From NCBI GenBank assembly GCA_027621155.1, contig JAQCCA010000002.1, forward strand, positions 1-42,156: DNA of 42,156 bases. The letters are read 5' to 3'. This document shows positions 7,817 through 37,548 of this stretch, one piece after another. A model generated the notes under the pieces. It saw only the letters and a list, made by a program, of their open reading frames with translations, was not told where the DNA came from and did not search any database. Made by a program: the position numbers and the translations under genes. Within the stretch, counting starts at the first letter, position 1. Every line of letters begins with the position of its first letter. The stretch is from Pseudomonadota bacterium (GTDB lineage Bacteria; Pseudomonadota; Gammaproteobacteria; Francisellales; Francisellaceae).

Positions 7817-9940
7817 TTGTTATTTGAACTTTTTATGCATAGACGTTTGGGTTTTTCTTTGGTCATTCTGTTGCTATTGCTTATCACAATGCATGGGCTT
7901 TGGGTGCTTTATGGCTATGCTAAGAAATATCCTGAGAATCAATTAAATAAGAAAATCATGATTGAGGGTGTTGTTGCTAGTTTGATTGATCGTGATAAAG
8001 CGGTCAGTAAATTTCTGTTTGCAACAAAGGATGGTTTGATTCGCTTGAGTTTGTATCCAAATAAAAACCTAAAACCATGGCAGTTAACGCCAGGTTCGCG
8101 TTGGCGCTTATATGTTAAATTACAAATGGCAAAAGGCTTTAGTAATCCAGGGGTTTTTAACTATGCCAATTGGCTTAAACGTCAGCAAGTTAAGGCAGTT
8201 GGTTATGTGAGCACAACTGAAAAAGCACAATTTCGCGGGATCGATTATCGCTATTTTGTTGAGCGCTTGCGTTATCGGATTGAACGCATACTGCAAAAAA
8301 CGATTAAAGATAAACAATTAAGAGCATTAGCTAGTGCATTGTTAATAGGTAATAAAAATGAACTTACGCTTGAGGATAAGCGCCTTTTTCAGCAAACAGG
8401 CACATCACACCTGATTGCGATCTCAGGGCTTCATATCGGCATGATTGCATTATTTGCTTTTTGTTTATTACGCGTTTTATGGTCTTGCTCAGTGCGTTTA
8501 TGCCAGTGGTTGCCAGCGCAAAAGGCAGGATTGATTGCCGCTGTTATCAGTGCCTTTGGTTATAGTTTATTAGCCGGTTTTGCTATCCCTACGGAACGCG
8601 CTTTTATTATGGTGCTTGTTTTTTCTGTTGGGCTTTTTATCAATCGCAAGATCAATAGCTTTTATTTATTGCTTATGGCGGGCGTTATTATTGTCTTGTG
8701 GCAGCCTTTGTCGTTATTTGAACCAGGATTTTGGCTATCATTTATGGCAGTTTTCTTTTTAATTATAATTAATCGCAGCTTATTATCACTTGCTAAGTTT
8801 AAGCGGTATCTTTTGATTCAATTATTGTTAATGATTCTGCTAATTCCGCTGACTATTTTCTGGTTTCAAGGTTTTAGTATGGTTGGCGTTATTGCCAATT
8901 TGGTTGCAATTCCATGGGTGAGCTTTTTAGTGGTGCCAAGCTTGTTTATTAATCTGCTGTTATTATTATTCGGCATAAATCTTTGGTTTATCAGTGCGTA
9001 TTTTATTCAATTTTTGGTGCTATGGCTTAATCTTCTACCTGTTGATATGTTGTTCTTTTATTGGCATAGCATCTCAATGTTAGCGGTGATTAGTGCAGTT
9101 ATTGGCTTAACGTTGCTGCTTTTCCCTTTACCATGGTATTTACGTGTATTAAGTATTGCACTCTTTCTGCCAATTTTTCAAAAAGCGCGCTTATCTTCAG
9201 ATGTGGCGTTTAAAATGACCGTTCTTGATGTTGGGCAAGGTCTGGCAATTGTGATTCAAACGCCAGAGACGGTCGTTGTTTATGATACTGCAGGTGGCAA
9301 TGGTAAGAAATTTATTATCGCTGAGCAAACGCTTATCCCTTATCTTAAACATCAAGGTATTCATCATATCGATACGCTCATTATCAGTCACAAAGATAAA
9401 GATCACAGTGGTGGTTTGGAGCATATGCTTAATGAATTTACGGTAACGAATATATTCAGTAATGAAAAGATCAGTGATGTTAATTCAGAAATTTGTCATG
9501 AGAGTTTACAGTGGCAAGTTCATGGTGTGAGTTTTCAATTTCTGACTGCTAATCATCTTAAGGGTAACAATGGCTCTTGTGTGTTAAAGGTAAATTTTAA
9601 TGATCAATCCGTTTTGTTAACGGGCGATATTTACAAAACAGCTGAGCGTCATCTACTTAATAATCATCGCAGATTATTGCCATCGACTATTTTGCTTGCA
9701 CCGCACCATGGCAGCTCAAGTTCGTCATCTAAAGACTTTATTGAAGCAGTGAGCCCAAAATACGTGATTTTTAGCAGTGGCAAGCATGATGGCTTTAAAC
9801 ATCCGCATAGTGAAGTGGTGCAAAATTATCAAGCTGCAGGTATAAAAATATTAAATACCGCACAAAATGGTGCAATCACGGCTATATTTAAAGATAATGG
9901 CGAGCTAGTGATAGAAACAAATAAAACTGAAGAAGAGTAA
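7817..9940 (+). CDS. comEC: DNA uptake channel protein ComEC/Rec2
   Basis: ComEC forms the inner-membrane channel that brings single-stranded DNA into the cytoplasm during natural transformation. The order is typical: N-terminal membrane segment, soluble OB-like region, a polytopic competence domain with the signature HLIAISGLHIGMIALF, about ten hydrophobic segments, and a C-terminal metallo-beta-lactamase-like domain (VLDVGQGLAIVI, SHKDKDHSGG, LAPHHGSSSSSS). Its 707-aa length is somewhat short but within the family. The listed start is TTG after AAGAG; the first ATG is at 7835 and is a possible alternative, with no clear ribosome site. With the type IV pilin gene nearby it supports possible natural competence. 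Confidence 0.93.
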   Translation: MLFELFMHRRLGFSLVILLLLLITMHGLWVLYGYAKKYPENQLNKKIMIEGVVASLIDRDKAVSKFLFATKDGLIRLSLYPNKNLKPWQLTPGSRWRLYVKLQMAKGFSNPGVFNYANWLKRQQVKAVGYVSTTEKAQFRGIDYRYFVERLRYRIERILQKTIKDKQLRALASALLIGNKNELTLEDKRLFQQTGTSHLIAISGLHIGMIALFAFCLLRVLWSCSVRLCQWLPAQKAGLIAAVISAFGYSLLAGFAIPTERAFIMVLVFSVGLFINRKINSFYLLLMAGVIIVLWQPLSLFEPGFWLSFMAVFFLIIINRSLLSLAKFKRYLLIQLLLMILLIPLTIFWFQGFSMVGVIANLVAIPWVSFLVVPSLFINLLLLLFGINLWFISAYFIQFLVLWLNLLPVDMLFFYWHSISMLAVISAVIGLTLLLFPLPWYLRVLSIALFLPIFQKARLSSDVAFKMTVLDVGQGLAIVIQTPETVVVYDTAGGNGKKFIIAEQTLIPYLKHQGIHHIDTLIISHKDKDHSGGLEHMLNEFTVTNIFSNEKISDVNSEICHESLQWQVHGVSFQFLTANHLKGNNGSCVLKVNFNDQSVLLTGDIYKTAERHLLNNHRRLLPSTILLAPHHGSSSSSSKDFIEAVSPKYVIFSSGKHDGFKHPHSEVVQNYQAAGIKILNTAQNGAITAIFKDNGELVIETNKTEEE

Positions 9941-9981
9941 ATAATTGGAGTTACGCATTTTTTAAAAAACTATGATTTAGA

Positions 9982-10095
9982 AACACCCCGTCAGTCTGCG
10001 ACTGCCACCCCTCTTGCAAAGAGGGGAATTGGGCAATGGTGATTTTATATTCCCCTCTTAGAAAGAGGGGTGCCGAACTTGTGAGGCGGGGTGTT
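9982..10095. repeat. 114-bp palindromic MITE/REP-like element, copy A
   Basis: Bounded by AACACCCCG and its inverse CGGGGTGTT, and containing several stems: CAGTC/GACTG, CCCCTCTT/AAGAGGGG twice, and GCC/GGC. The reverse complement of copy B (14383-14496) matches it over the full 114 bp with about 10 differences by eye and no gaps. Several differences are paired so that stems are kept. No coding capacity was seen. It separates comEC from the acyltransferase gene. Confidence 0.9.
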
Positions 10096-12471: not shown

Positions 12472-12936
12472 ATGATGGACATTGAACAAATTAAAAAAAT
12501 GAGAAAACAAAAAGGTTTCTCATTGATTGAATTACTAATTGTAATTGCGATTATTTCGATTTTAACTGCGATTGCGATTCCGATGTATACTAGTTATACA
12601 TCAAAAGCTAAAACATCTGAAGCGTATGCATTTATTGGCTCGGACAAAGCATACGTAGCGGAACAGATAAATGCGAAAAATATCTTATCGGGTACTCCTT
12701 CAGGTCTTTCAACTGAAGGCGGTACTAAAACTGGGAAATATGGCTCTGTAGCAACGGATTCGGCGGGTCAAATTACTTATACTTTCTCAAGTTCAGCAGG
12801 GACCGCTTTAGATGGTGGTACTGTTGTTTTGGCTCCAACAGTTTCCTCAACAGGTGTTACCTGGGCTTGTACTAGTACAGCGCCGACTGCTGGGGCTTAC
12901 GAGTCAGAGCCTTGTGATGCTATAACTAATCAGTAA
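12472..12936 (+). CDS. Type IV pilin (PilA/PilE-like major or minor pilin)
   Basis: The prepilin signature is clear: a short charged leader ending in KQKG (residue 15), cleaved by PilD, then [22 protein letters not shown] with Glu at mature position 5. A pair of C-terminal cysteines (in WACTS and SEPCD) would close the disulfide loop of the globular head. The listed start at 12394 gives an unlikely 41-residue leader. I take the ATG at 12472 (or 12475) behind AGAGGAG. A strong terminator lies 80 bp downstream, so it is monocistronic. It faces a Wzy_C/PglL-type ligase, suggesting the pilin may be its glycosylation target (inference). The serine/threonine-rich head would suit O-glycosylation. 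Confidence 0.93.
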
Positions 12937-14382: not shown

Positions 14383-14496
14383 AACACCCCGCCTCGCAAG
14401 CTCGGCACCCCTCTTGCGAAGAGAGGAATATAAAATTACCATTGCCTAATTCCCCTCTTTGCAAGAGGGGTGGCAGCCGTAGGCTGACGGGGTGTT
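14383..14496. repeat. 114-bp palindromic MITE/REP-like element, copy B (inverted relative to copy A)
   Basis: It has the same 9-bp ends (AACACCCCG...CGGGGTGTT) and the same length as copy A, in reverse orientation. Stem changes between copies are compensatory: CAGCC/GGCTG here, CAGTC/GACTG in copy A. It lies between the ligase gene and the DUF2062 gene. The segment TTGGAGTTACG occurs near both copies outside the element. Confidence 0.9.
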
Positions 14497-14547
14497 ATAA
14501 AAGTCATCGTTTTTTCTAAAATACCTAGATTTAAGCGACTACTATAG

Positions 14548-33911: not shown

Positions 33912-33956
33912 ATGTGCTTTAGTGTTTGAGTTGAAAACTAAGTTAAGTTTTAATTA

Positions 33957-34012
33957 ACCCCTCACCCGCGCAGCATAAGCTCACGACCTCTCCCTCAAGG
34001 GGCGAGGTGAGA
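33957..34012. repeat. Imperfect palindromic repeat between convergent tsaD and thioesterase genes
   Basis: Outer CTCACC/GGTGAG and inner CTCTCCC-TCAA-GGGGCGAG inverted segments. It occupies the convergent gap in the same way as the 1030-1095 repeat, so it may be a bidirectional transcript end. Sequences of the CCCTCACCC...CTCTCCC type are, from memory, common dispersed repeats in bacteria. Confidence 0.7.
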
Positions 34013-34039
34013 TAAGTGGAAAAACTTATTTTTCCACTA

Positions 34040-34429
34040 TCATTGAGCCAATGCCTCTTTGACTTCATCTGGCACAAAAGGGCGTCCTCCAGCTGCTGGA
34101 ATGCATGTGGCAATAAAGTTGGCTTCAGCACAGAGCTTGCCATTGCAAAGCATTTTCTGATAAAAACCAAATTTGATATTGCTGATGGGCGTAAGCTCAC
34201 AGGTGACTTCAACTTGATCACCCTTCTTAAGTGAGCTTTTAAACTTGAGCTCATAAGATGCTAATACATAAAGTTTGCCCTCGTCAGCAGCTTTGACGAT
34301 ATCTATGTCAAAAACGTCACGCATAAAATCATGGCGTACTTTTTCCATGTAATACGGGTAATATAATCCATCAAGAATCCCTTGAAAATCAATATGTTCA
34401 TCCTTAATGTTGAGTGTTTGGCTATACAT
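34040..34429 (-). CDS. 4-hydroxybenzoyl-CoA thioesterase family (YbgC-like) acyl-CoA thioesterase
   Basis: A 129-aa hot-dog-fold protein. The segment DEHIDFQGILDGLYYPYYMEKVRHDFM follows the usual layout of the 4HBT helix, though the expected catalytic aspartate in a DxxG-like position reads as HIDFQGILD, so the exact active site is uncertain. The later strands FKSSLKKGDQVEVTCEL and KLCAEANFIATCIP fit the family. ATG is preceded by AGGAGAAAAAA. It is monocistronic and convergent with tsaD. Confidence 0.78.
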   Translation of the reverse strand: MYSQTLNIKDEHIDFQGILDGLYYPYYMEKVRHDFMRDVFDIDIVKAADEGKLYVLASYELKFKSSLKKGDQVEVTCELTPISNIKFGFYQKMLCNGKLCAEANFIATCIPAAGGRPFVPDEVKEALAQ

Positions 34430-36248: not shown

Positions 36249-36932
36249 ATGTCGGAAGAGAACCAGATAACTTATGATGAACTTGCTGCGGTTGCCGAAC
36301 GTCTAAGTCGTGAGGGGCGCGAAGTCACACTTGAATATGTGCGTCGCGAGTTAGGCAAGGGCACGCATGCACAGATCGCGGTCCTTCTTGGTAAGTGGCA
36401 AAAAGAAAATGCGCAATTAATGCATGAAAATAAAAATGCAAGACCTAAATTTTCACAATCAAGATCTGATGATGAGAGAAATACAGGCACTTCTTCGCTG
36501 CGTAGACCAGATATGAATGGCTTTAAATCAAAGAAGCCTATGCGTCAACAGCAATCCACTCATGGGCAAAGCGAATATAGGAAATCTTACTCAAGAACGC
36601 AGTTTATCGGTAATGGTAATTCCGATGAGTCTTATGAGGCGATCGCACCGCGCGAGTCATTGACTTCGGAGCGTTTGCAGGCGGAACCTGCGATTATCCA
36701 GAAGCTTTTTCAGGCGTTAGCGATTATTAGAAGTACGCGTTTGTTAGCACAAGAGCACTATCAAACAGCACAAAATGAATTGCTTAATACGCGCATGACC
36801 TGTGATCAAGAAGTGCGTGACTTTCAAAAAACGGCGAATGAGCAATTATTAGCATTGCAAACAGAGTTCAGTCGCTTGAAAACAACTTATGATCAAGAGA
36901 TTATTGCCATTCGTCGTCAGTTAAGTATATAA
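36249..36932 (+). CDS. KfrA N-terminal domain DNA-binding protein with coiled-coil tail
   Basis: A 227-aa protein. Residues about 7-50 (ITYDELAAVAERLSREGREV, then TLEYVRRELGKGTHAQIAVLLGKW) match the KfrA N-terminal helix-turn-helix domain, best known from plasmid partition/autoregulatory proteins. A basic, low-complexity middle (about 60-120) leads to a C-terminal alpha-helical stretch rich in Gln, Glu and Leu that looks like a coiled coil. Here it is next to rnpB and relA on what appears to be chromosome, with no partition or replication genes, so a plasmid role is not supported. ATG follows TTAAGGGAATTC. Confidence 0.78.
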   Translation: MSEENQITYDELAAVAERLSREGREVTLEYVRRELGKGTHAQIAVLLGKWQKENAQLMHENKNARPKFSQSRSDDERNTGTSSLRRPDMNGFKSKKPMRQQQSTHGQSEYRKSYSRTQFIGNGNSDESYEAIAPRESLTSERLQAEPAIIQKLFQALAIIRSTRLLAQEHYQTAQNELLNTRMTCDQEVRDFQKTANEQLLALQTEFSRLKTTYDQEIIAIRRQLSI

Positions 36933-36941
36933 TTCTGCCCG

Positions 36942-37369
36942 CTAAGTTGATTAGACAGTCGCGTCTGACCACTAAGTTCATAGATTAAAATAAAAGCTTT
37001 AGCATGAATTTAGACAAAATCTTCTATGCAGGAGGTTCGTTAGTCTGGAACTTAGTGGTCAGACGAGGAAAGTCCGGGCTTCAAAGAGCAAGATGCCAGG
37101 TAACGCCTGGGAAGCGTAAGCTTACGGAAAGTGCAACAGAGAATAGACCGCCTGTATTGTTATATAGGTAAGGGTGAAACGGTGTGGTAAGAGCGCACCG
37201 CGCTTTTGGTAACAAAAGTGGCATGGTAAACCCCATCTGAAGCAAGGCCAAATAGGGTTGTAATAGTGTGGCTCGCGCTGCAACCGGGTAGGCTGCTTGA
37301 GCATTATGGTGACATAATGCCTAGATAAATGACTGTCCACGACAGAACCCGGCTTATCGATTGACTTAG
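36942..37369 (+). ncRNA. rnpB: RNase P RNA (class A) with enlarged P3 arm
   Basis: The catalytic RNA that cuts 5' leaders from pre-tRNAs. Conserved blocks in order are AGACAGTCGC (P2), GAGGAAAGTCCGGGCT, GCCAGGTAACGCCTGG, AGTGCAACAGAGA, GGTGTGGTAAGAGCGCACCGC, AGCAAGGCCAAATAGG, and GACTGTCCACGACAGAACCC with CGGCTTAT at the 3' end. P1 pairs CTAAGT with ACTTAG, which defines the ends at about 428 nt, longer than E. coli M1 RNA (377 nt). The excess is in P3: an exact 18-bp helix (36962-36979 with 37048-37065) closing a 68-nt loop. The listed minus-strand 72-aa ORF is an artefact. Confidence 0.95.
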
Positions 37370-37548
37370 TATTTCTTTACCTTTTTTTGCTTTTTTTACC
37401 TAACGCAAGATGTTTGATATTTATCATACTTTCACTAGGGTTTTTCACTGATTTTCGTTATCCTTAAATACAGCTTTTATTGATAGGTCATACTTGAATC
37501 CCAAGCGTGGACTTTAGATTTTTTAAGATGATTTTTGGATAGATAAGA

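Follow-up and report, generated by a model that had tools for sequence, protein, structure and literature searches.

The RNase P RNA gene (rnpB) in the window, as the whole analysed stretch of 42,156 nt is called here, has a P3 arm of 104 nt, against a median of 19 nt in a survey of gammaproteobacterial families. The gene belongs to class A (Rfam RF00010). The question was how such an arm arose on a conserved core, and what it means for the RNA. One intact class A gene was located at about 36941-37372, and it is the only copy in the source genome. RF00010 matched at 37052-37372 over the whole model (1-367) with 300.9 bits, against a gathering score of 100, so that the covariance-model check proposed with the sequence-only reading returned class A. 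P1, P2 and P3 follow in order, P1 and P2 being long-range pairings; in its complete set of core elements, single copy and promoter-like 5' site the gene resembles class A RNase P RNA generally. With its 3' end, the upstream ORF (36249-36932) overlaps the putative promoter. Feature coordinates are collected in Table 1.

Table 1. Features of the rnpB locus, in window positions.
Feature	Position	Strand	Basis
rnpB	36941..37372	+	5' end by P1; 3' end by Rfam match
Sigma-70-like promoter, TTGCCA-18-TATAAT	36904..36933	+	11/12 consensus positions; consensus match only
P1 5' strand	36941..36952	+	paired with 37359-37370 in MFE fold
P1 3' strand	37359..37370	+	MFE fold
P2 5' strand, GACAGTC	36954..36960	+	exact complement of GACTGTC 37331-37337, the P2 position of RF00010
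Expanded P3 arm, 104 nt	36962..37065	+	inverted repeat, fold, comparison with relatives
P3 closing helix 5' arm, 18 nt	36962..36979	+	exact inverted repeat; covaries among relatives
P3 apical insert, 68 nt	36980..37047	+	single occurrence in genome
P3 closing helix 3' arm, 18 nt	37048..37065	+	exact inverted repeat
Catalytic core, conserved, AGGAAAGTCC ... ACAGAACCCGGCTTA	37066..37356	+	RF00010 alignment

The Rfam match starts within the P3 3' arm, and the 5' end of rnpB given by it is therefore off by about 111 nt. The long arm accounts for this, since it disturbs the 5' alignment and pushes the model's 5' portion onto the 3' arm of P3. The true RNA 5' end was placed near 36941 from folding, base pairing and the P2 complement GACAGTC/GACTGTC.

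The arm was assigned to P3 because it lies between P2 and the RF00010-conserved GAGGAAAGTCCGGGC; the conserved GAGGAAAGTCC forms its downstream boundary and P2 the other. The exact 18-bp helix around 68 nt that had been described from the sequence was found in full. Perfect 18-mer inverted repeats (loop ≤200 nt) occur just this once in the 42 kb of the window, and none was obtained in 100 Markov-1 sequences. A second helix of 8 bp (36981-36988/37040-37047) follows behind a one-base bulge, the tip is AT-rich, and the 104-nt arm folds at -45 kcal/mol (z = -8.5). The arm was not detected a second time in its own genome, genus or family, and the search for genomic copies suggested earlier returned the rnpB copy alone; the arm thus lacks the multiple copies that mark a MITE-like dispersed palindromic repeat. 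The motif CAGTCGCGTCYKACCA was matched only in the window among 369 genomes of the class and, on that search, is not a widespread motif.

The downstream RelA/SpoT-like protein is 95-99% identical to those of Cysteiniphilum species, with Facilibium and Fangia next, and a locus titled 'Caedibacter sp. MAG-148' is equally close by this protein. This comparison places the source genome in Cysteiniphilum, a genus related to Francisella. Six Cysteiniphilum genomes were compared, with a core alignment of 293 positions. C. marinum has the shortest P3 region (23 nt), followed by C. litorale (70 nt) and the window (103 nt, or 104 when the closing pair is counted); the longest are those of MAG-148 (182 nt), strain JM-1 (187 nt) and C. 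halobium (190 nt). The cores are 98.6-99.7% identical, halobium excepted (95.2-95.9%), and that of the window is 95.9-99.7% identical to the others; an expanded P3 on a conserved core, as first proposed, therefore stands. The sequence-only reading had named an arm of equal length in all related genera as the observation that would speak against it; lengths were found to differ among relatives. The genus thus offers a natural close-range series, from 23 to 190 nt on a near-identical ribozyme core. The RF00010 scores of the three other Cysteiniphilum with arms >180 nt are about 44-53 bits under that of marinum.

In the wider family P3 measured 12-24 nt, except in a three-genome clade (83-87 nt) of genus g5, which is probably Francisella. 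Across a gammaproteobacterial survey of one genome per family (about 118 families) the median was 19 nt and the maximum 77 nt. Survey lengths were measured automatically and then inspected (the true lengths at loci L209 and L144 are about 9 and 21 nt), and arms were short by eye at the nine loci for which no automatic length was returned.

Dispersed repeats were found inside several of the long arms. Element A, a palindromic repeat of ~120 nt with at least about 40 matches per genome, lies within the JM-1 and halobium arms. Element B, of ~190 nt, ends in TGGAGTTACG...CGTAACTCCA and gave 21-49 matches in five of the six Cysteiniphilum genomes and 3 in the remaining one (G001); its left half, from the terminal repeat TGGAGTT onward, is held by the MAG-148 arm. 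These three arms accordingly carry sequence with multiple genomic copies and terminal inverted repeats, as expected of MITE-like elements. Outside rnpB, the window itself contains element B at 9937-10047 and 14431-14522 and element A at 33936-34008, the latter being partly read as protein (SPLEGEV...AGEG) in the mechanical ORF 33943-34254. In an unrelated genome (G066), a P3 of 77 nt surrounds a palindromic repeat of 40 nt, of which that genome has about 40 further copies; as both the lineage and the repeat differ, P3 captured a repeat there independently. Dispersed repeats are thus accommodated by P3 in two or more gammaproteobacterial lineages that are unrelated to each other. Another copy of the G066 repeat lies about 55 bp upstream of that P3 (contig C66, 12814-12865, against 12683-12759). 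The long P3 of the g5 genomes gave no high-copy match when searched for dispersed repeats.

The direction of change was examined within the genus. The C. marinum P3 equals the JM-1 arm minus exactly 164 nt between two copies of TTAC, and this exact match means that a short P3 can be a secondary loss. The whole arm is common to JM-1 and halobium, the most divergent species, at 81% identity, which suggests that the long, element-bearing form was ancestral to Cysteiniphilum. The window and its relatives have the ACCACT/AGTGGT base of the arm in common, which makes the long arm older than the source genome. The long arm probably antedates the split of the Cysteiniphilum species and has been rewritten repeatedly since, enough to obscure any empty insertion site; nodes ordering gain and loss within the genus have weak support (54-94).

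Within the genus, both sides changed in 7 of the 18 closing-helix pairs and 98.9% of cells were paired, against 36-57% for slid helices; none of 500 shuffles reached the observed covariation. With two g5 genomes added, eight pairs had changed on both sides. In the alignment, five adjacent pairs of the window had changed together, from TTTTG/CAAAA to AAGTT/AACTT. Template switching is able to create and maintain RNA hairpins (PMC8794818), and a single such event would fit the five-pair change at least as well as stepwise compensation. Strong selection, which had been offered as a cause of the helix's exactness, is accordingly one of two candidate sources, homogenisation of the arms by template switching being the other. 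When the P3 5' arm was set against the P1 5' strand, 6 of 7 changed positions had become P1-like (p about 0.007, a posteriori), which is suggestive only of local copying.

These results are probably best explained by an ordinary class A RNase P RNA, functional and encoded by a single gene, in which P3 is a permissive, hypervariable insertion site. In the Cysteiniphilum ancestor, P3 would already have been well over the usual ~20 nt and closed by a long helix, and the MITE-like elements A and B, both dispersed palindromic repeats, would have inserted into its apical part. Palindrome-prone mutation would then have rewritten the arm, by slippage deletions and by template-switch or selection-driven matching of its two sides. 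The window arm would combine the ancestral base CGTCT.ACCACT/AGTGGT..GACG with a replaced, perfectly matched mid-stem and the 68-nt insert, whose repeat identity is no longer recognisable. Since this insert showed no similarity to elements A and B, its presumed repeat origin is drawn from the relatives. Within the C-domain, P2 and P3 are stacked coaxially as a single unit (PMC4919922). As P3 is peripheral and stacked on P2, an insert could be tolerated if it forms a closed hairpin, which at the far end of P3 would keep the active site clear; most likely, pre-tRNA cleavage is hardly affected by the arm, if at all.

A different fate of the arm is conceivable by analogy with the intervening sequences (IVS) of fragmented 23S rRNA. 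Like the P3 arm, these are sporadic hairpin inserts of variable length that are closed by a long helix and seated in a peripheral arm of an RNA essential to the cell. RNase III, which needs about two helical turns, might cut the long helix, release the arm and leave a two-piece RNase P RNA joined by tertiary contacts. In each of the five long Cysteiniphilum arms the closing helix is near-perfect and about 20-26 bp long, close to that requirement, and the arms also show the hallmarks of an IVS, being variable in length, sporadic in occurrence and conserved in the closing helix. Were this so, Cysteiniphilum would run a two-piece RNase P RNA, with the P3 arm as the intervening sequence, a kind of fragmented bacterial RNase P ribozyme of which we know no example. 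However, a palindromic origin may by itself account for the strong helix, and excision, hypothetical here, is considered unlikely. The strong compensatory change in the closing helix, by which pairing was maintained or re-made, could also be read as functional adaptation, the extended P3 binding a protein or another RNA with a gain in, for example, stability or regulation. Sister species nevertheless differ in arm length and apical sequence, the marinum arm is almost fully gone, and no conserved apical motif was seen in the Cysteiniphilum alignment, which makes adaptation distinctly improbable.

The sequence-only reading had favoured either selection or a recent palindromic insertion, and the latter would here be a mobile element newly inserted in the source genome. 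Mobile-like repeats in the P3 of sister species lend this part of the proposal some weight, yet the 104 nt are without a second copy in their own genome or family and the basal arm sequence is common to relatives, so that a recent insertion is very improbable. It had further been proposed that P1 and P3 might pair alternatively through a shared CTAAGTT/AACTTAG, and such a strand exchange could act as a switch. The sequence CTAAGTT is indeed identical in P1 (36942) and P3 (36972); the P1 3' strand, however, reads GACTTAG and agrees in 6 of 7 letters. Forced pairing of the P1 5' with the P3 3' strand costs 22 kcal/mol and that of the P3 5' with the P1 3' strand 31 kcal/mol, the alternative base-pair probability was 0.0000, the native hairpin was computed to be ahead during transcription once 37060 is made, and the shared 7-mer is missing from the P3 of relatives. 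With both exchanges above 20 kcal/mol, the switch was rejected as next to impossible.

Under the reading of P3 as a permissive insertion site, the series shows an essential RNA accepting, rewriting and deleting palindromic insertions. Palindromic insertion in an RNase P RNA is already known from Rickettsia, where palindromic elements are reported in M1 RNA and tmRNA (Ogata et al., 2002, cited from the review PMC2229807), and Cysteiniphilum is a well-resolved new instance. Both cases concern short dispersed palindromic repeats within an RNase P RNA gene; by comparison with that review, the lineages and repeat families differ, and here P3 has received repeats in two or more lineages that are unrelated, with turnover of the arm inside a single genus. 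Literature searches on repeats in rnpB genes, cyanobacterial ones included, yielded nothing usable. Within the literature searched, the P3 location in these lineages, the turnover within one genus and the independent G066 repeat are new.

Three further observations were made among the relatives. The P3 5' arms of two g5 loci (L039 and L042) have 10-11 letters (CGTCTGACCA, CGTCTGACCAC) in common with the window arm, where other Cysteiniphilum read CGTCTTACCAC; ancestry, transfer and convergence are candidate causes. An RF00010 match was absent in 13 of 143 surveyed gammaproteobacterial genomes, several of them >95% complete, which may reflect strict filters, divergence or true loss. The RNase P RNA at locus L198 (genome G059) has a P3 of 50 nt and appears to be expanded by roughly 150 nt in its P12 region.
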